64,000 nt of DNA from Cardiobacteriaceae bacterium (GTDB lineage: Bacteria > Pseudomonadota > Gammaproteobacteria > Cardiobacteriales > Cardiobacteriaceae): contig JAUMXB010000003.1 in assembly GCA_030529365.1 (NCBI GenBank), positions 62,001 through 126,000 on the forward strand, written 5' to 3'. Shown one piece after another: positions 4,413 through 33,391 of the stretch. A program made the translations under genes and the position numbers. Each line of letters begins with the position of its first letter. Position 1 is the first letter of the stretch. A model generated the notes under the pieces. That model was not told the origin of the DNA and searched no databases. It worked only from the letters and a program-made list of their open reading frames with translations.

Positions 4413-6575
4413 TCAGCATTTTTGCAGGTTGGCGTAGGCGAGTACCAGCCATTTTTCGCCAGCAGCAAAGCGGATGAGGGCGCGGGCATGTGCGCCGCTG
4501 CCTTCCAGTGCGAGTACACAGCCTTCGCCGAATTTGCCGTGCCGCACCATGTCGCCCATGCGCAGGCCGCCGTGATCGGCGCTGGGCATGGCGCGGTTTT
4601 CCTGGCGGCGGTAATGGCTGATGCCTTCATAGACCATGGGGCGAATGGCTTCGAGCAGGTCTGGCGGGATTTCATGAATGAAACGCGATGGTTGCGGATA
4701 GTTTTCCTGCCCCTGGAAGCGGCGGCGTTCGGCGAAGCACAGGGTGAGGCGTTCTTCGGCGCGGGTCATGCCCACGTAGGCAAGACGCCGTTCTTCTTCG
4801 AGGCGGTCGGCATCTTCGATGGAACGGCTGCCTGGAAAGAGTCCTTCTTCCATGCCGACGATGAACACGTTGGGAAATTCCAGCCCTTTGGCGCTGTGCA
4901 GAGTCATGAGCTGCACGGCGTCCACGCCTTCTTCGGCCTGGCCGTCGCCAGCATCGAGGGCGGCATCGGCGAGGAAGCTCATCAGGCGGTCGTCTTCCGG
5001 GGAAGTGGTCATGTCCACATAGGTGCCGGCGTTGATGAGTTCGTCCAGGTTTTCGCGCCGCGCTTCGGCCTGCTCCTTGCCGCTGTCTTCATGCATGGCA
5101 TAGAGGCCGGAGTCGTGCACGACAGTATGGAGCGCTTTTTTGAGCGATGGATCGGCCTTGACGTTTGCCGTCAACTGCCTGACCAGTGCGACAAAGCCGG
5201 TCAAAGCGCCTGCCGCGCGGGCGGAAAACAGCGACGGCAAATCGCCCTGCTGCAACACTTCCCAGAGCGACAATCCATGCTCACGCGCCAGTTCGCGTAA
5301 TTGCGCGAGCGTTTTTGCGCCGATGCCGCGCGGCGGCGTATTGATGACGCGCTCCAGCGCGCCGTCGTCCTGCGGATACTGGGTAAGGCGCAGATAGGCG
5401 AGCGCATCCTTGATTTCCGCGCGTTCGAAAAAGCGCAGGCCGCCATACACGCGGTACGGCACACGTTGCTGCAGCATCAGCTCCTCGAAAACGCGCGATT
5501 GCGCATTGGAGCGGTAGAGCAGGGCGCAATCGGAAAAACGCCCGCCTTTGTCCACCCAGGCGCGGATTTCGTCCACCACATAACGCGCTTCATCGTATTC
5601 ATTGAGCGCCGGATAGACACGCACCAGCTCGCCCTGCCGCCCGTCGCTCCAAAGCGCCTTGCCGAGACGGCGATCATTCTTGGCAATCACCGCATTGGCG
5701 GCATCGAGAATGCGCTGGGTCGAGCGGTAATTCTGCTCCAGCCGCACTGTGGCCAGATCGGCAAATTGCCGGTCCAGCGAGAGAATGTTTTCCACTTTCG
5801 CGCCGCGCCAGCCGTAGATGGACTGATCGTCGTCTCCCACCACAAAAAGCGCCGCGCCGCCGCCAACCAGCAATTGCACAAGGCGAAACTGCAAGGCATT
5901 GGTATCCTGGAATTCATCGACGAGCACGGCCTGGAAGCGCGACTGGTAATGCGCGCGAACCGCTTCCTGTGTTTGCAGCAGTTCCACCGTAAGCAGCAGC
6001 AGCTCGGCAAAATCCATCGTGCCCTGGGTGCGGCAGCGCGCTTCGTAGTCGGCATAAAACTCGCGGATGGCGCTGTCGGCGGGATGCACGCTGGCAGGCA
6101 CATCGGCGGCGCGCAATCCGTCTTCCTTGAACGCATTGATTCGGGCGCACATTTGCTTGGGCGCGAGAATATCCTCGTCCCAGTTGCGCTCGCGCATCAT
6201 GCGCTTGACCATGCGCAGCTGGTCTTCGCTGTCCATGATCACGAATTGGCTCGGCCAGCCCATGCTTTCGGCGTGACGGCGCAACATGCGATGGCAGATG
6301 CCGTGGAACGTACCTACCCACAATTGCCCCAAAGGCCGCTCCAGGGCCGCTTCGAGACGCTCGCGCATTTCGCGCGCCGCCTTGTTGGTAAAGGTGAGCG
6401 CCAGCAGCGCGAAAGGAGACAGGCCCTCGACCGCCATCAGCCATTGCATGCGCTGCACCAGCACCCGCGTTTTGCCGCTGCCCGCACCGGCAATGACCCG
6501 CACCGCACGGGCATCATGCGTGACCGCTTCGCGCTGGCGCTCGTTCAGCCCGGCCAAAATCGTACTGACATCCAT
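4413..6575 (-). CDS. uvrD: DNA helicase II (UvrD)
   Basis: A 720-residue superfamily 1A helicase that unwinds DNA 3'-5' in nucleotide excision and mismatch repair. Motifs in order: Q-motif LNERQREAV, Walker A GAGSGKT, motif II VDEFQDTN, motif III GDDDQSIYGWRGA, motif V TLHSAKGLEF and motif VI YVGMTRAEERL. It ends with the UvrD-type C-terminal domain (GDMVRHGKFGEG) that binds RNA polymerase in E. coli. The longer frame to 6734 runs through the tRNA gene and is rejected. MDVSTILAGLNERQ at 6575 has a GGCGG ribosome-binding site and gives the usual length. A second, Rep-type helicase is encoded at 36.9 kb. Confidence 0.97.
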   Translation of the reverse strand: MDVSTILAGLNERQREAVTHDARAVRVIAGAGSGKTRVLVQRMQWLMAVEGLSPFALLALTFTNKAAREMRERLEAALERPLGQLWVGTFHGICHRMLRRHAESMGWPSQFVIMDSEDQLRMVKRMMRERNWDEDILAPKQMCARINAFKEDGLRAADVPASVHPADSAIREFYADYEARCRTQGTMDFAELLLLTVELLQTQEAVRAHYQSRFQAVLVDEFQDTNALQFRLVQLLVGGGAALFVVGDDDQSIYGWRGAKVENILSLDRQFADLATVRLEQNYRSTQRILDAANAVIAKNDRRLGKALWSDGRQGELVRVYPALNEYDEARYVVDEIRAWVDKGGRFSDCALLYRSNAQSRVFEELMLQQRVPYRVYGGLRFFERAEIKDALAYLRLTQYPQDDGALERVINTPPRGIGAKTLAQLRELAREHGLSLWEVLQQGDLPSLFSARAAGALTGFVALVRQLTANVKADPSLKKALHTVVHDSGLYAMHEDSGKEQAEARRENLDELINAGTYVDMTTSPEDDRLMSFLADAALDAGDGQAEEGVDAVQLMTLHSAKGLEFPNVFIVGMEEGLFPGSRSIEDADRLEEERRLAYVGMTRAEERLTLCFAERRRFQGQENYPQPSRFIHEIPPDLLEAIRPMVYEGISHYRRQENRAMPSADHGGLRMGDMVRHGKFGEGCVLALEGSGAHARALIRFAAGEKWLVLAYANLQKC

Positions 6576-25500: not shown

Positions 25501-25588
25501 AATGGTAAATTTTCTCACTATTAAGCGCTTATGATGAGAAAATTTCTCATGATAAGCGCTTCATCATGGTAAAAAATAACTATTTTTG
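25501..25588 (-). repeat. Octamer-pair intergenic repeat, copy 9
   Basis: Octamers at 25523-25530 and 25554-25561, spacing 23 bp. The central module GAGAAAATTTCTC is a perfect palindrome. The A arm (GGTAAAAAATAACTATTTTT) ends 7 bp from the stop codon of the converging gene. Confidence 0.93.
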
Positions 25589-25594
25589 ATAGAT

Positions 25595-26269
25595 TCATAT
25601 AAGTTCATTGAAACCAAAGGATATTTCCCCGTTTTCATCGCTGCGGTGCAGACCGGGGGCGATGCGGATGCGCATGTCGGCGAGTTCGCGCTCGATGGTG
25701 CGGCAGACGGCACGCACGCCCAGTTTGCCGGAGACGCCATCGCGTTGCGCGATTTCTCCGGCAGTTTCCCGCCATTCGCGCAGGTCGCCGTTGCCGCCCG
25801 CGCGCTGGAAATAAGTGGCAAGCGTTTTGCGCAGGGGATCGAAGCGGCCAAATTGGGCGTCGGCAGGATCGGTGCGCACGGTGAAGGGCGTGCCATCCTG
25901 CGGCAGGAAGGCGATGCAGGATTGCTGAAAATATTCGCCGAGGCGGGCGATGGTGAGCAGGAAATTGGCGTCGTGGCAGAGGTTGGTTGCGACATACCAA
26001 ATCACGCCGTCGCGATCAATGAGGGTATAGACGCCGTAACGCCTGTATTCGAGAAAGGCCTTGAGCAGCCGGTTGTTGCGGGTTTGCCGTGCCTGCACGT
26101 CGGCAGGAAGCTCGGTCGGGAAGATGGCGTTCAGGTCTTCGGCGGCGATGCTGCGCACAGGCACTTCTTCATATGACTCGCGCCGGGCGTTGGCACGGAG
26201 TATGGCGCAATCATGCTGCGCGGCAAGCGTTTGCAGGCGGGCAAGGATTTGGTCGGTAAATGTTGTCAT
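25595..26269 (-). CDS. Hypothetical protein, 224 residues
   Basis: The start MTTFTDQILARLQ at 26269 has an AAGGAGACC ribosome-binding site. The protein is predicted cytosolic with mixed alpha/beta character. The middle part, RRYGVYTLIDRDGVIWYVATNLCHDANFLLTIARLGEYF, resembles no family I can name. There is no signal peptide or membrane helix. It lies 22 bp downstream of a 56-residue ORF on the same strand, which probably belongs to the same transcript. Confidence 0.7.
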   Translation of the reverse strand: MTTFTDQILARLQTLAAQHDCAILRANARRESYEEVPVRSIAAEDLNAIFPTELPADVQARQTRNNRLLKAFLEYRRYGVYTLIDRDGVIWYVATNLCHDANFLLTIARLGEYFQQSCIAFLPQDGTPFTVRTDPADAQFGRFDPLRKTLATYFQRAGGNGDLREWRETAGEIAQRDGVSGKLGVRAVCRTIERELADMRIRIAPGLHRSDENGEISFGFNELI

Positions 26270-26291
26270 AAGGTCTCCTTGTGAAGTGGAT

Positions 26292-26462
26292 TCAAACAAA
26301 ATGCTGGCTGGCTTTGCGCAACGCGGCAATCCATCGCGCGCTATCGGCAAAGGTTGCAGGCAGTGGATTTGGGGAGAAGGCATGAGGATGCTGCACGCGT
26401 TTCTCGGTGAGAAAAATGCGCAGGATGAGGCATTCGCTGTAAGGCGTGAGTCGGTTGGTCAT
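26292..26462 (-). CDS. Small hypothetical protein, 56 residues
   Basis: An unreported-size frame with ATG at 26462, a GGAG ribosome-binding site 8 bp upstream and a TGA 22 bp before the next gene. The product begins MTNRLTPYSECLILRIFLTE and contains SARWIAALRKASQHF near the end. It looks like a helical small protein. The good ribosome-binding site and gene-like spacing support it. No family is recognised. Confidence 0.5.
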   Translation of the reverse strand: MTNRLTPYSECLILRIFLTEKRVQHPHAFSPNPLPATFADSARWIAALRKASQHFV

Positions 26463-26658: not shown

Positions 26659-26865
26659 TCAGAATGATTTTCGGTGTTTTCTGGATTTCCACTCGAAGAC
26701 TATGCGATCAACAAGTCCGGCCTTTTTCAATGTAATTTTGCTGCCGCATCGCGGGCAACGGCGGTCAGACGGGGCAAAGAGGGCATCGCCGCGTTGCAAG
26801 AGAGGGTCTTTCCAGTGGCATTGCGTGCATTGCCAATGGCGCGGATAAGGGCTGGCAACAGGCAC
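26659..26865 (-). CDS. Small zinc-ribbon protein
   Basis: A 68-residue protein with four cysteines, CTQC (13-16) and CPRC (37-40), spaced as in a zinc ribbon, followed by a basic tail (KSRKHRKSF). It could bind nucleic acid or a partner protein. The start is a GTG at 26865 that overlaps the stop of the HEPN gene (TAGTG), with AAGGAAG upstream, so it is translationally coupled as the last gene of the five-gene operon. An ATG start at 26904 is possible but would overlap by 40 bp. A specific function cannot be assigned. Confidence 0.75.
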   Translation of the reverse strand: MPVASPYPRHWQCTQCHWKDPLLQRGDALFAPSDRRCPRCGSKITLKKAGLVDRIVFEWKSRKHRKSF

Positions 26866-27524
26866 TATTCTTCCTTGATGACGGGATAAAACGGCTTGCC
26901 CCAATCCGGGCGCGCGTGATTTTCCAGCATGATCTGCAGCATGAGGGGCAAGAAGCGCCCCAGGATGGCGCAGGCATCGGCAAGCTGCCTGCGATTCACG
27001 CCGCTGCCGTGCGTAGCGCCGCCGTGCACAAGCTGGTTGCGCAGGGTATAGAGACGATCGAACACGATCAGCAGTACATTGTCAGTATCGCGATTGGCGA
27101 GCGCTTTGCGCGCCTTGTTTTTGCCACGCTCAAAATCTTCTACCCATGCGTTTTGGCTGATCTTGCCATTTTGGAAATCCCAAAAAGCCTGGAATACGAA
27201 TCGGTTATCCAAAAGCATACGGATGCTGCCGGGAAAAGTCTCCCAAACCAGCTGGTAGATTTGCTGTGATTTATCGAGATGGCAGAGTGTATGCAAAAAC
27301 TGGCGGAAAGCGCTTCTGTCCGAGAGAGAGCCGGCTTCCAGCTCCTTGGCATACGCTGCATTGAAAGCAATCCACAAGCTGATGAAGCGGATATCCAGAT
27401 CCTCCGTGCTTTCCGCTTTTTTCAGCCAGCTGATGGCGCGGTAAAGGCGCAAGTCAAAAGCTGGCGTGAAGTGCGATTTACCGGCTTTGAAAAGCGCGAG
27501 CAGGGCATCACTCGTCATGGTCAT
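26865..27524 (-). CDS. HEPN-domain protein (Apea-like)
   Basis: A 219-residue, mostly helical protein. The motif RNQLVH at 162-167 fits the R-x4-6-H signature of HEPN domains, followed by GGATHGSG. Upstream, LDIRFISLWIAFNAAYAKE (about 43-61) matches the first conserved helix of Apea-like HEPN proteins. HEPN proteins are frequently RNases in toxin-antitoxin, abortive infection and CRISPR systems. Activity here is inferred from the motif only. Its ATG overlaps the patatin stop (ATGA), and its stop overlaps the zinc-ribbon start. Confidence 0.8.
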   Translation of the reverse strand: MTMTSDALLALFKAGKSHFTPAFDLRLYRAISWLKKAESTEDLDIRFISLWIAFNAAYAKELEAGSLSDRSAFRQFLHTLCHLDKSQQIYQLVWETFPGSIRMLLDNRFVFQAFWDFQNGKISQNAWVEDFERGKNKARKALANRDTDNVLLIVFDRLYTLRNQLVHGGATHGSGVNRRQLADACAILGRFLPLMLQIMLENHARPDWGKPFYPVIKEE

Positions 27525-28630
27525 GGGGTTATCCTTTTGCGGTTTGTCAGCAAGGCCATTTTTTCTTCCATCAGGCGTTCGGATGCCTGCAAGGCGCTGT
27601 CGTCAGTGAGTTCTGCATTTGTATTTTGCATTTTTGCTCTGGTATCCAAAGCGCTTCGGATTTTGCCTACGGCTTTCAGAGTATCTTCGTAGCCATATTG
27701 CATCAGTGTATCGATGTGGTCTGCGGAAAAATCCAGCATGGATGCCATCCCCATATCCAGTTCGGGATTGGGGCGAATTTCCACGAAAGCCGCATCCGGA
27801 AAATCATGACGGTGCCACAAAGAGCCATTGCTCAAATGGCTTACGATAATAGGATCGCAACCGGCTTGCACAAGAGGCGTCACCGGCGTATTGCCCTGCG
27901 CTTTTATCCAGCCGCCTTGTCCGCCGTCCGTCATGCGATTGCCTTCTGCGTCATACTTGGGCTTGAAAAGCAAAGGAAGTGCGGCAGAAGCGAGCAAAGC
28001 GTCTTGTTGTCGTGCTCGTGGCAAAGACTGGATGTGCAAAAATTCCGATGGTTTGTTTTCAATGCCAAGAAATTGTGCGGTCATGAGATCGGATACTTCC
28101 TCGACCCAGTTTCCGGACTTGTAAACCGAGACATACAGTGGAATTCCTTGTTGCAGATATTCCATGTCCAAAAACTCTTGCAACAATTGCTGCAATGGTT
28201 TGTCGGAAAAAATAGAGAATCCGTTTTCATCCAGGGGAAGCTTGAGCCCTATTTTTTTAGCCAGCTTGTAAATCTGGCTACGAAAATCCAGTGTGGACTC
28301 CAATAAAGTCGCAGGCAAAGCGTTCATCTGTAATCCGGCAGAAACCAAGACCGTGAGATAACTGGCTATTTCAACCGCGCTTCTGAAAGTGGATGTGGCA
28401 TCCAGTTGTAACACCTTGATTTGCGGCAGTCGTAGCCACAGCTTTTCAAGACGGGCGACGCCAGTTTGTAAATCCGGTGCGGATGCGAGTATCGCGCCAT
28501 TCAAAGCACCAATACTTGCGCCGGCAATCATGTCTATCTGCACGCCAGTTTCCAATAGCGCTTTCATCATGCCAACCTGATAGGCGCCTTTGGCCCCGCC
28601 GCCCGATAACACCAATCCCCGTTTTATCAT
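27521..28630 (-). CDS. Patatin-like phospholipase
   Basis: A 369-residue patatin-fold lipase. The oxyanion-hole glycine motif SGGGAKG is at 9-15, the nucleophile elbow GASIG at 37-41 (Ser 39) and the catalytic Asp in TDGG at about 235, which completes the Ser-Asp dyad. It probably hydrolyses membrane phospholipids. There is no signal peptide, so it acts in the cytoplasm or at the inner membrane. Patatins serve as membrane-degrading effectors in some phage defence systems (for example CapV in CBASS). It is joined to rdcB upstream and the HEPN gene downstream by ATGA overlaps. Confidence 0.92.
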   Translation of the reverse strand: MIKRGLVLSGGGAKGAYQVGMMKALLETGVQIDMIAGASIGALNGAILASAPDLQTGVARLEKLWLRLPQIKVLQLDATSTFRSAVEIASYLTVLVSAGLQMNALPATLLESTLDFRSQIYKLAKKIGLKLPLDENGFSIFSDKPLQQLLQEFLDMEYLQQGIPLYVSVYKSGNWVEEVSDLMTAQFLGIENKPSEFLHIQSLPRARQQDALLASAALPLLFKPKYDAEGNRMTDGGQGGWIKAQGNTPVTPLVQAGCDPIIVSHLSNGSLWHRHDFPDAAFVEIRPNPELDMGMASMLDFSADHIDTLMQYGYEDTLKAVGKIRSALDTRAKMQNTNAELTDDSALQASERLMEEKMALLTNRKRITP

Positions 28631-29526
28631 TGCCGCACCTCAAACATTTCCTGCACCATTCTTTCGCCGACTCTGTTGATATCAATCAGTCGATAAGTAT
28701 TACGCTCATGCGCATGCTGCTCATCCATATCCATTGCTGGCCATTGGGTCGCCATAAATGTGAGGCGGGCGGATTTGGGATCATTCAATGACCAATCGCC
28801 CTGATACTGCAAAAGGCGGGTGATTTCTTCTTGCTGTGAACCATCGGGAATTGCCAGCCATTTGTCACGGTCAATATCCTCATCGCGCGAAGTATTGAAA
28901 TCTATTTGCAATTGCTGAGTGATTTCAAAGACCAGTTTGTCGCATAAATCATATTTCTTTTGCGCGTTATTGCTTTGCTGCAAAAACAAGCCGAAATTGC
29001 CCCAATAAAGTGCTTCAAGGACGCTATAGCAGCGCGCCATGGGCGACAAAGTCTGCAAATCCCCGCTTTTCCATTTGCGCAGCCAACGCTGCCATTCGTC
29101 TTCGGCCTTGCTGATAAGTTCCAGCTCGCCAAGCCTGTCCGCATGATTGCTGAGCACATTGTCAATTCTTGCCAATTCGTTGACCACTGCCTCGGTCATA
29201 TTGGCCAGGTTTGTTTGCGTATTTTGCAGGCTTGTGCGGATATTCAGCATGGCGCGTCCCTGTAAGGTCTGGCTGGCGCTCAATTCTTCGATCAAGTGCC
29301 GGCAAGCCTCAATACCATGAATCAAATGATCCTGAATATGGATATTGCGGGTGTGCCCATGTCCGGATATGGCGTCGAGCGCACGCTGTACAGGCTTCAA
29401 GCGCTGTTGCTGGACGGTATTCAGTTCCATGGCGGCATCCATGCCGTTGACGAGATCCAGAATCATCTTGATTTTGGCAGCGTCATGCCAGGAATGCTTG
29501 GCTTCGAGATTGATAAGGGCATTCAT
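28627..29526 (-). CDS. RdcB/YjcZ-like protein
   Basis: A 299-residue helical cytosolic protein that resembles E. coli YjcZ (RdcB), by length, by the N-terminal DLVNGMDAAMELNTVQQQRLKPV region and by its position directly after a dynamin-like GTPase gene. In E. coli, RdcA (YjdA/CrfC) and RdcB cooperate to activate the diguanylate cyclase DgcE. No diguanylate cyclase gene lies in this window. A coiled-coil is likely at about 90-150. Start and stop overlap the neighbours by 4 bp each. Assignment is from memory of the family, not an alignment. Confidence 0.7.
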   Translation of the reverse strand: MNALINLEAKHSWHDAAKIKMILDLVNGMDAAMELNTVQQQRLKPVQRALDAISGHGHTRNIHIQDHLIHGIEACRHLIEELSASQTLQGRAMLNIRTSLQNTQTNLANMTEAVVNELARIDNVLSNHADRLGELELISKAEDEWQRWLRKWKSGDLQTLSPMARCYSVLEALYWGNFGLFLQQSNNAQKKYDLCDKLVFEITQQLQIDFNTSRDEDIDRDKWLAIPDGSQQEEITRLLQYQGDWSLNDPKSARLTFMATQWPAMDMDEQHAHERNTYRLIDINRVGERMVQEMFEVRQ

Positions 29527-32018
29527 GCTCTAGTTTCCTGTAGTGCAAACACTTTTCGTATGGCTTCAATGTCGCCGTTCAGTATGGCGCTTCTCCGGCG
29601 AAGATTTCGAACCACAGTGCAAAACTTCTCTTTATCCGTGATTTGGCTTTCGTTCAGTGCAATAGCTTCAACGAACTCGTTGTTAAGAACTTCAATGCCG
29701 GATTTGAATGTGGAGATGGATTGCATGACTTGCTCTGTCAAATGAGTGACAAAAATTTCTACTTTATCTTTGGTGGGCAGATAAATGTTATGGGAAATGT
29801 CATTTATTATGTGTTCTTCGATTTCTCTTAAGGTATCTGTGTAAATAGGTATTTCTTTGTCTTCGTAACCGCCGAGATGCAATTTGCGTTGACACCATGC
29901 CCAAAATCCTCCTGATGCTACGCGCTCAGTTTTTTCTTCTCTCATCATTTCCCTGGAATATTGCACGCTATCTTCTGAAATGGATTCAATGCAATAATGC
30001 GAAAGTGGCTCCATTTTTATATCGATATTGTTTTTCGAAAATTCCTGTTGGATAAAATGAAAGATTTGCTGTATTTCCTGCTCCGCATGATTAAAATTTT
30101 TTCGTACCTTATGGAAGCTTTCTGTAGTTATATTTTTGGCGATGTTATTATTCTTGTTAATAGAAAGTTGATATATTTCATTTATTCTCTTTAAAAATAA
30201 ATCTTTTTCATTGTCTCCTTTGATGGTTATTTTCTTTTTTCCTAATCTCTCTTTGATATCATCTTTTTTGGCTTTTTTTTGAGCGTCGGAAATGATCTTC
30301 CGCCCTTTAAAGCTAAATAGCCTTTTGGCATCAAATTTAAAAAAGAATTCCTTACGAGTGATAGTTGCATCATCCAGTAAGCCTTCAAGCTCTTTTATCA
30401 TTTGGTCAAAAGCGTTATGAACTAGTTGTTCCGTTTCAGTTTGTAATTTTCGGATGCCGGTATCAACGAATGCTTTTTCTTTTTTGACAATCTCTTGCAA
30501 ATCGTCCTTGATGTATTTTTCCAGACTATGTAGGCGATTGGTTTTTTCTTTTAAATTGGCAACCAGTGCTTTCAGCTTGTCTAGTTCTTCGCGGCTACTG
30601 GCAGCAGCTTTGTTATGAATTGCCAGAGCGTTATGGATGTTGTCGAGCGAAGCTTTGACTTGCAGCAGGGCGGATTGGGCGGAAATAACAGGCGCTTCGA
30701 CACGTGTTTGCAGGATGATTTTTTCTACAGGAAGCGATATTCGGCTGGATTTTTTCATCCTTTCAATACTTTTCAGTATGTTGGCAAGGTCGGTGGATTC
30801 CCATTCTTCTGTTACTTCTTCTTTATCGTAGTCGGGGTAAATGCTGTGGGCAAAATCTGCAATCCAACTATTGCATTGGTAGCCCGGTTTGTTACCGGTA
30901 CGATCAATTTCTGCGGCCATGCGCTGTGCTAAGGAGGCTTTTTGCGCAGAGATGGCGAAGATGTTTTCATGGAAAATTTTGTCTTTCAGCAAATCGCCAT
31001 AAATCATGTCTCGCGTTTGTTCCGCGTCGTCGGAGTTGGATTTGTATTGATCGAACTTGTTGGCGAGCGCAAAAAGACGTTTTTTGTCGATATGGGGCAG
31101 TTGTTCCAATTGAGCGCGAACATCTGCTTCTGCATTGGATTTTAGCTGGGTATAGTCGAGTATCAGTAAGACGGCGGAACTACGCCGCAGTTGCGCATCC
31201 AGCATCGCCTGCAAATGGTTCTGCCCGGATTCATTGGGGCCTGGCGTATCAAGCAGGGTAAGGCGACCTGGCAAATGCTCGTGATCTTTCAGGTTGGAGA
31301 AAGCCACCGTGATCAGCGGCAAACTGTCGAAATTACGGTATTGCGCGTAAGGAAATGCAAAATGATCAGGGGGAATATCATTATCTATGGCTGAACGGCC
31401 GAGCATTTCGGACAGTCGCACGATGTCATTCAGGGATTCAAGAAAAGCGAAAATTTCTGCTTCGCCGTGATAATCGTTCTGGAATATTTCCGTATTTTCT
31501 GCGGTTTCAATGGTGTGCAAGAGTTTTTGCAGGCTCGGATTGGCGCTTATTTCCGGATTGCTTTTGCATTCTGGGTGGTTGCGCAAAAGTGTTTGAATAT
31601 TTTGTGCAAAGCTGTTGATTGCTGTGCTGTCAAAAGTCAGCTCCGGATGATTTTGTCCTGGAGTGTGGCGAATCAGGGTAGGTAAAGTAGTCATTGGCCG
31701 ATTGCGGCTGGGCAGGATTTCCTGGCCGACAATGGCGTTGATAGTGGTGGATTTGCCGGCTTTCATGGTGCCGACAACCGAGAGAACCACATCGAAGTGC
31801 TCAAGCTTGGCAATTTCCCCTTTAAGAATGGCTTTGCTTTCTTCGAGATTTGCATGGGTGAGCAGTTTGTTGCTGTCGTTTGCACTTTCGCTGCCTTGCG
31901 TCATGAGTTCGGAATTTTGGATGTCATCAATCAGCTCAATTTGGTCAAGCAGCCTGTTTATAAGCTCATCACGGTAGGCCAGCAAGATTTCGGAGGGAAG
32001 GTGGTTGGGTGATTGCAT
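29523..32018 (-). CDS. Dynamin-like GTPase (RdcA/CrfC/YjdA-like)
   Basis: An 831-residue large GTPase. G1 is GTMKAGKST (83-91), G2 lies in the NRPMTTLPT region (106-114), G3 is DTPG (257-260) and G4 is NKFD (320-323). Long helical, Lys/Glu-rich stalk regions follow (about 420-800). Dynamin-like proteins bind or remodel membranes. Neighbouring rdcB points to the E. coli RdcA/CrfC group. The ATG at 32018 has an AAAGGA ribosome-binding site; an extension to 32180 would cover the terminator and promoter and is rejected. The gene is visibly A/T-richer than its surroundings, suggesting acquisition. First gene of the operon. Confidence 0.88.
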   Translation of the reverse strand: MQSPNHLPSEILLAYRDELINRLLDQIELIDDIQNSELMTQGSESANDSNKLLTHANLEESKAILKGEIAKLEHFDVVLSVVGTMKAGKSTTINAIVGQEILPSRNRPMTTLPTLIRHTPGQNHPELTFDSTAINSFAQNIQTLLRNHPECKSNPEISANPSLQKLLHTIETAENTEIFQNDYHGEAEIFAFLESLNDIVRLSEMLGRSAIDNDIPPDHFAFPYAQYRNFDSLPLITVAFSNLKDHEHLPGRLTLLDTPGPNESGQNHLQAMLDAQLRRSSAVLLILDYTQLKSNAEADVRAQLEQLPHIDKKRLFALANKFDQYKSNSDDAEQTRDMIYGDLLKDKIFHENIFAISAQKASLAQRMAAEIDRTGNKPGYQCNSWIADFAHSIYPDYDKEEVTEEWESTDLANILKSIERMKKSSRISLPVEKIILQTRVEAPVISAQSALLQVKASLDNIHNALAIHNKAAASSREELDKLKALVANLKEKTNRLHSLEKYIKDDLQEIVKKEKAFVDTGIRKLQTETEQLVHNAFDQMIKELEGLLDDATITRKEFFFKFDAKRLFSFKGRKIISDAQKKAKKDDIKERLGKKKITIKGDNEKDLFLKRINEIYQLSINKNNNIAKNITTESFHKVRKNFNHAEQEIQQIFHFIQQEFSKNNIDIKMEPLSHYCIESISEDSVQYSREMMREEKTERVASGGFWAWCQRKLHLGGYEDKEIPIYTDTLREIEEHIINDISHNIYLPTKDKVEIFVTHLTEQVMQSISTFKSGIEVLNNEFVEAIALNESQITDKEKFCTVVRNLRRRSAILNGDIEAIRKVFALQETRA

Positions 32019-32033
32019 GGAAATCCTTTGAAG

Positions 32034-32067
32034 ACAAAAAATCAGGGAAAGTGCAACCTTTCCCTGA
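32034..32067 (-). terminator. Intrinsic terminator hairpin in the operon leader
   Basis: TCAGGGAAAG (32042-32051) pairs perfectly with CTTTCCCTGA (32058-32067). On the minus strand it is followed by a run of six T. It lies between the promoter at 32142-32170 and the ATG at 32018, so it can end WYL transcripts and also attenuate the operon itself. Confidence 0.85.
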
Positions 32068-32109
32068 CAGTGTATGGTTCTTTGCGACGGAATCTGTCGG
32101 ATATGGTTT

Positions 32110-32141
32110 GGCAATGTTGCCGTAATATTACAAGGCGGCAA
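32110..32141. promoter_or_regulatory. Overlapping inverted repeats at the operon start site (putative operator)
   Basis: GGCAATGTTGCC (32110-32121) overlaps a larger pair TTGCCG (32117-32122) / CGGCAA (32136-32141) that encloses the palindrome GTAATATTAC (32122-32131). They directly follow the -10 box, so a bound protein would block initiation or elongation. Confidence 0.6.
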
Positions 32142-32170
32142 TTTATAAGGTGCTTGCTCTTTTTTGTCAA
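32142..32170 (-). promoter_or_regulatory. Promoter of the dynamin/patatin operon
   Basis: On the minus strand TTGACA (32165-32170), 17 bp, TATAAA (32142-32147): near-consensus sigma-70. It starts inside the intergenic region just past the WYL stop codon. Transcription would begin near 32135, giving a leader of about 115 nt. Confidence 0.75.
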
Positions 32171-32173
32171 TGG

Positions 32174-33139
32174 TTAACAAGGGGTTTTTTCAACGGCGGA
32201 GATGGCGTCGCCGAATTTGGCGAGCCACCAGTCGAGCATGGCGCTGTCGGTGACAGTGGCCTGGAAGCGGTAGTGCATGTCGCTTTCTTCGAGGATGCGC
32301 TGGTCGGCGGAGAGCGGGGTTTCGGTCAAGTGAAATCCGGCGGTTTTCGTGATGGTGAAGGCGAGGGTGATGCGTTTGCCTTCGCCGAAGCCGAAGCGGC
32401 CATCCGAGAGGTGCTTTTCCAAGTTGAAGTCGGCGGGGCGGGTGAAGGTCATGGTGCTGCATTTGCCGCTGCGCATGCGGTGCAGGGCGAAGTGGCGTTC
32501 GTTGTCGTAGTGCTCGTGGCGGGCGACGAGGTAGAGGGTGGGGCCTTGTTGCGCGAGGGCAAGCGGCATGACGCGATGGGTTTTGCGCTGGCCGTTCTGG
32601 TTTTGGTAGTCGATGTCGAGCCAGCGGTTTTCAAAGAGTGCCTGGCTGACTTCGCGGAAGATGGCGCTGTCGATGGCGGCAGGGATGAGGGGCTGGCTGG
32701 TGGGGACGGTGCAGACTTTGCCGAGCCATTCGTGGCCGCGTTTGTGTTTGTCGCCGTGGGCGAGGTGGTAGTCGGCCTGGGCGAAGAAGGGAGCAAGCGC
32801 TGCCATGATGTTGGCGGGCAGGAGGTAGCGCAGGTGTTCGGCGGCGAGTTTGAGGAGGAGGGATTCTTCGGTGCCGAGGGTGGGGATGGCGAGGCCTTTG
32901 CTGCCGTGTTTCCATTTGTAGCCGTAGGGTTTGCTGCTGGCGTCGATGTCGATGTCGTCGCGAAAGCGCTCGGCGAGTTTTTCCAGATAGCGCTGGATGC
33001 TGCGTTCGTCGCGTTCGATGCCGATGCTGGCAAGCTGCTGGTGGATGTCTTGCGCGGTGGTTTTTTGGTTTTTGGGGATGCGGCGCAGGATTTCGAGGTA
33101 GATAAGGGCGGTGTCGAGGGCTTCAGGACGTGTGGACAT
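32174..33139 (-). CDS. WYL-domain transcriptional regulator
   Basis: A 321-residue regulator with an N-terminal winged HTH (about 8-70, DIHQQLASIGIERDERSIQRYLEKL) and a WYL-type ligand-binding domain (about 130-215) in which ENRWLDIDYQNQNGQRKTHRVMPLAL and TLYLVARHEHYDNERHFALHRM are the diagnostic strands. A C-terminal extension domain follows. WYL regulators of this size (BrxR/CapW type) often repress phage-defence operons. The ATG at 33139 was preferred over a TTG at 33154, because the -10 candidate TATAAT (33163-33168) would leave no leader for the latter. It lies directly upstream of the dynamin operon on the same strand. Confidence 0.88.
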   Translation of the reverse strand: MSTRPEALDTALIYLEILRRIPKNQKTTAQDIHQQLASIGIERDERSIQRYLEKLAERFRDDIDIDASSKPYGYKWKHGSKGLAIPTLGTEESLLLKLAAEHLRYLLPANIMAALAPFFAQADYHLAHGDKHKRGHEWLGKVCTVPTSQPLIPAAIDSAIFREVSQALFENRWLDIDYQNQNGQRKTHRVMPLALAQQGPTLYLVARHEHYDNERHFALHRMRSGKCSTMTFTRPADFNLEKHLSDGRFGFGEGKRITLAFTITKTAGFHLTETPLSADQRILEESDMHYRFQATVTDSAMLDWWLAKFGDAISAVEKTPC

Positions 33140-33217: not shown

Positions 33218-33300
33218 TTGTTTTTTACCATTTACAAGCGCTTGTTGCGATAAATTTTCTCATGATAAGCGCTTCGTGTCGGTAAAAAACAGCTATTTTT
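33218..33300. repeat. Octamer-pair intergenic repeat, copy 11
   Basis: Octamers at 33236-33243 and 33267-33274, spacing 23 bp. A-type arms on both sides (TTGTTTTTTACCAT and GGTAAAAAACAGCTATTTTT). Lies between the divergent WYL and maf genes. Confidence 0.92.
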
Positions 33301-33391
33301 ATGTTTTTTATGAGTTTTGATGCTTTTCGGATTCGCACTGGTGGCGAGTTTTTGGCATGATAGCGCTTTATTTTTGACAAGGATGCCCGTG

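Follow-up and report, generated by a model that had tools for sequence, protein, structure and literature searches.

Gene content and organization of the locus

The window, by which we mean the whole 64,000-nucleotide stretch analysed, carries on its minus strand a WYL-domain regulator gene, a promoter, a hairpin and an operon that begins with a gene for a dynamin-like GTPase. The features are listed in the order in which they are read.

32174–33139, minus strand: regulator with WYL and WCX domains, candidate repressor of the promoter (PF13280, 2.9e-13; PF25583, 0.0012)
32142–32170, minus strand: sigma-70-type promoter, TTGACA-17-TATAAA (11 of 12 consensus matches)
32117–32141, minus strand: imperfect 25-bp inverted repeat, TTGCCG..CGGCAA, containing GTAATATTAC; candidate operator, statistically marginal and suggestive in position
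32110–32121, minus strand: second short inverted repeat, GGCAACATTGCC (GGCAA-CA-TTGCC), with 5-bp arms
32036–32067, minus strand: intrinsic terminator with a perfect 10-bp stem, 6-nt loop and T6 (d-score 30, ΔG −16.1 kcal/mol)
29523–32018, minus strand: dynamin-like GTPase, relative of RdcA/CrfC (YjdA) (Dynamin_N, 1e-18; CrfC model, 2.5e-98, below cut-off)
28627–29526, minus strand: RdcB/YjcZ family protein (PF13990, 9.7e-24)
27521–28630, minus strand: patatin-like phospholipase (PF01734, 1.4e-26)
26865–27524, minus strand: ORF4, 219 amino acids, unnamed family, also present in the relatives L017, L023 and L031
26659–26904, minus strand: small zinc-ribbon-like protein (weak match, below cut-off)

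The dynamin-like GTPase followed by a YjcZ protein reproduces the RdcA/CrfC–RdcB gene order. Against the NCBI CrfC equivalog model the GTPase scores 330 bits, with a cut-off of 1,146, so by sequence we regard it as a relative of CrfC and not as CrfC itself. We take the ATG at 32018 as its start because it is preceded by AAAGGA and lies 82 residues ahead of the G1 motif (about 70–90 in most homologues). An upstream TTG start, in a frame open back to 32180, was rejected: it has no ribosome-binding site, and the homologous N termini fit the ATG. ORFs related to the zinc-ribbon-like protein lie before the dynamin gene in L017, L027, L035 and L040. PADLOC gave weak or generic matches, and these to the patatin and WYL proteins only. 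The presence of a WYL gene and a patatin is what suggests the ‘costly effector system’ of a preliminary description. A 262-amino-acid ORF (25595–26383) at the edge of the module has no Pfam or NCBIfam match and no counterpart among the 11 relatives searched within the family.

The WYL gene stops at 32174, just ahead of the −35 box. Its WCX match (19.5 bits) is below the curated cut-off of 23.9, and its N-terminal helix–turn–helix, without a Pfam match, was judged by eye only. The best phmmer matches among solved structures are WYL-domain proteins and a DeoR-family regulator (E = 0.002–0.005); no match was labelled BrxR or CapW, the labels being the depositors' own. In another genome (L114), a WYL relative lies amid ordinary genes and offered no lead.

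The operon was probably acquired horizontally, because the module is absent from the congener (genome 78% complete) and from the other relatives searched in the family and order, synteny with the congener ends at 33223 within a dispersed repeat, and a further copy of that repeat lies at 25507–25587. Family and order matches to the module proteins are short, weak GTPase-motif matches, and the class sample yielded no YjcZ protein in 368 other genomes. The dispersed repeat itself, about 80 bp long with AAGCGCTT palindromes, occupies 33223–33305, 25507–25587 and many other intergenic places. The genome carries dozens of copies (47 matches counting both strands; an initial pass gave 507 candidates, of which 40 were scored), the congener also has some, and copies lie on either side of the dynamin module.

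Promoter, start-site repeats and terminator

The −35 box TTGACA (32170–32165), the 17-nt spacer and the −10 box TATAAA (32147–32142) form the only site in the 64 kb that departs from the consensus at no more than one base; 0.05 are expected. Exact TTGACA-N17-TATAAW occurs at two sites in the 2.3-Mb genome, the dynamin promoter among them (0 and 1 in the controls). This confirms on the minus strand the promoter sequence that had been proposed; the start near 32135 that went with it is a prediction. We strongly predict that this near-consensus promoter, just 3′ of the WYL gene, drives the dynamin operon.

The 25-bp inverted repeat (arms TTGCCG/CGGCAA of 6 bp, 13-bp gap, 32141–32117) abuts the −10 box on its downstream side and extends across the predicted start to about +19, with GTAATATTAC at 32131–32122 inside it. 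The three repeats at the start site overlap and have no common centre. Taken jointly they differ from shuffled sequence at P = 0.04–0.05, and the lone repeat with 6-bp arms at P = 0.26; the operator-like repeats described earlier over the start site are therefore present, at a significance that is only marginal (shuffle P of about 0.05). The composite site occurs once in the genome, and the start-site repeats were not found again upstream of the WYL gene or anywhere else in the genome. An operator shared with the WYL upstream region was considered, since each region contains TTGCC three times; the word is frequent here (0.0065 per base), however, and was not counted.

The hairpin, TCAGGGAAAG-GTTGCA-CTTTCCCTGA at 32067–32042, is followed by TTTTTT at 32041–32036. 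An additional outer G–U pair extends the stem to 11 bp (ΔG −16.1 to −17.5 kcal/mol), and the d'Aubenton-Carafa-type score is 30. The perfect 10-bp stem and six T residues stand as first described; the distance to the ATG does not, as the T-run ends 17 nt before it, and not 16 bp. The exact hairpin sequence was found once in the genome. Scanning both strands of the window yielded just nine terminator-like sites, three of them within predicted genes, so few canonical terminators as good are present there. The hairpin shares its strand with the WYL gene and is 3′ of that gene; the promoter of the dynamin operon is upstream of the hairpin.

Distribution of the module and its leaders

A first scan of genome contigs with the protein alone gave no match. 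A homologue scan by alignment gave 80 loci, which with four plasmid records made 84 for comparison; 24 of these carry a patatin gene (L014, L015, L017, L019–L022, L024, L026–L029, L031, L034–L036, L038, L040, L041, L051, L052, L055, L062 and L072). The RdcA–RdcB–patatin operon is scattered through Proteobacteria, with one case in Paenibacillus, and often follows a WYL regulator. A WYL gene is upstream in 10 of the 24 patatin-bearing loci and in none of the 60 others (Fisher P = 7e-7, loci not independent), a count that is descriptive because most of the 60 are crfC loci on enterobacterial chromosomes and some contigs end early. With this recurrence, the WYL protein becomes a candidate for the repressor acting at the start-site repeats. 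The module loci contain two WYL subfamilies, and the window regulator is detectably related only to that of L027 (32%), where the WYL gene looks frameshift-broken. A search of plasmids with the leader DNA found no homologous leader, and a search of viral contigs with the dynamin gave no match. L051 (4902–9014), from Acinetobacter chengduensis, has a tandem pair of dynamin genes after its WYL gene.

Absence of the hairpin from homologous operons had been named beforehand as an outcome that would refute attenuation, and the comparison gave that outcome: a terminator of comparable score and position occurs in 0 of 83 homologous leaders with a placeable start. The leader of L015, with no placeable dynamin start, was left out of scoring. 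Three weaker terminator-like candidates (L025, L080 and L088) score 3.9–16, with weak stems 100–190 nt upstream. We reject a conserved attenuator on the basis of these 83 leaders. Because identity between the homologous proteins does not exceed about 40%, the leaders could not be aligned base by base; over that distance, the missing terminator speaks against an attenuator of ancient origin but leaves room for a recent one. On this comparison, the terminator appears particular to the present lineage, and it looks more like a local insulator or throttle than like a conserved switch. The closest relative, L017 (an Actinobacillus MAG), has a 13-bp A–T-rich hairpin at about 4640–4711, just before its zinc-ribbon gene, which in L017 comes ahead of the dynamin gene; this hairpin has a negative terminator score.

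Control of the operon

We favour, with about an even chance of being right, a model for the accessory RdcA–RdcB–patatin operon in which a strong promoter is probably repressed by the WYL protein and a lineage-specific terminator downstream of it both closes the WYL transcript and acts as a static throttle. The near-consensus promoter directly after the WYL gene would transcribe the operon. The WYL protein probably represses this promoter through the inverted repeat that extends from the −10 box to about +19. The hairpin, as an ordinary intrinsic terminator, would end the WYL transcript about 105 nt past the WYL stop codon. Because the dynamin promoter lies upstream of the hairpin, the terminator would throttle the operon too, setting a fixed read-through fraction as an unregulated throttle that needs no signal. 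We infer the efficiency of the terminator, and an efficient one would make the retention of a strong promoter upstream of it odd. The repeats, barely above chance and without recurrence in the genome, are points against the WYL-operator part of this model.

The hairpin may instead be the terminator of the WYL gene only, inefficient on the dynamin transcript and without a role in operon control. We consider this a real, if clearly less likely, possibility: the hairpin has the strand and the position (3′ of the WYL gene) that this would require and is absent where the WYL and dynamin genes are closely spaced, but its score is high and all transcripts that enter the dynamin gene must cross it. 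Such close spacing occurs in L019, L020 and L022, in which WYL is directly upstream and the dynamin gene follows within about 30–90 nt, a spacing that points to a shared transcript more than to a separate operator. It also counts in favour of a reading in which the promoter match and the repeats in the window are coincidental and the operon is read from a WYL promoter, for which a weaker promoter-like site (9/12) upstream of the WYL gene is available. This is very unlikely, given how few promoters of such quality are expected in 64 kb and the strong terminator that parts the WYL and dynamin genes here.

Attenuation was the earlier interpretation of the layout, and the promoter does read through a terminator-like hairpin to reach the first gene. 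A version in which a signal, RNA structure or protein toggles the terminator between termination and read-through is improbable and not supported by the leader comparison. The leader RNA folds better than its shuffles (z = −3.5), with the terminator hairpin probably accounting for much of this. The sole antiterminator candidate, a 7-pair helix (CCGACAG/CUGUCAGG) that could compete for the foot of the hairpin 5′ arm, gains only about 4 kcal/mol, whereas the terminator gains 16. The leader has neither a peptide preceded by a ribosome-binding site (Shine–Dalgarno) nor a relevant Rfam match, and the terminator is not conserved among homologous leaders. The same order of promoter, short RNA, terminator and effector gene, together with the stable fold, would also suit a promoter that chiefly makes a terminated RNA of about 100 nt with its own role, like the RNA antitoxins that precede type III toxin genes. 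There is little to recommend that reading: the leader contains no tandem repeats (of at least 20 nt), Rfam is again silent, no endoribonuclease was recognized among the operon proteins, and no homologous leader was found. Most far-fetched would be an undescribed immune-type operon with a two-stage lock, the WYL protein acting on DNA to repress the promoter and on the leader RNA to control the terminator. Of the strong promoter held in check by both repression and attenuation that was first envisaged, repression remains plausible, considering the WYL gene before the −35 box, the recurrence of WYL genes and the known WYL sites; regulated attenuation is not supported. By analogy with those sites, we propose that the upstream WYL protein probably represses the dynamin promoter.

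Relation to known systems

The arrangement resembles a static attenuator of the kind found at E. coli ampC, in which a promoter and then a terminator stand ahead of the first gene; here the read-through is predicted from sequence. CapW, the WYL repressor of CBASS operons, binds 19–24-bp palindromes over the −10 box (PMC9122588). Similarly, the window has a WYL and WCX regulator beside a phospholipase operon and a candidate palindrome that touches the −10 box and start site. However, CapW sites lie within the CBASS promoter, whereas here the palindrome is weak and a second promoter follows the WYL gene; among the module proteins, none was recognized as a CBASS cyclase. BrxR, the WYL repressor of BREX islands, binds inverted repeats just after the −10 box, and in pEFER a second box serves a later, downstream promoter (PMC9122601). 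The candidate site is likewise just downstream of the −10 box, but BrxR boxes have 11-bp arms and a 5-bp spacer, in contrast to the 6-bp arms and 13-bp gap here, and that gap exceeds the limit of less than 8 bp applied in the same study (PMC9122601).

In E. coli, RdcA (YjdA/CrfC) and RdcB activate the diguanylate cyclase DgcE and are members of the flagellar regulon, with rdcA–rdcB under FlhDC/FliA control (PMC6510439). The first two genes of the operon are homologous to E. coli rdcA–rdcB (yjdA/crfC–yjcZ) and in the same order, but the E. coli pair has no adjoining WYL or patatin gene and its leader has no terminator. The dynamin–RdcB–patatin operons of E. coli and Enterobacter plasmids (L014 and L015) share the three-gene core; unlike the window, they have no WYL gene detected in the fetched region, and no terminator was found in the L014 leader. 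We found no paper in the open-access literature that describes the combination of RdcA–RdcB, phospholipase and WYL.

The leader itself is close to ordinary, and its setting matters more: an accessory relative of the E. coli c-di-GMP regulators RdcA–RdcB is joined to a phospholipase and placed repeatedly after a WYL regulator. The RdcA–RdcB–patatin operon is a candidate defence module. It resembles operons that are silent until infection, and may serve as a test case for a defence role of such dynamin-like GTPases.
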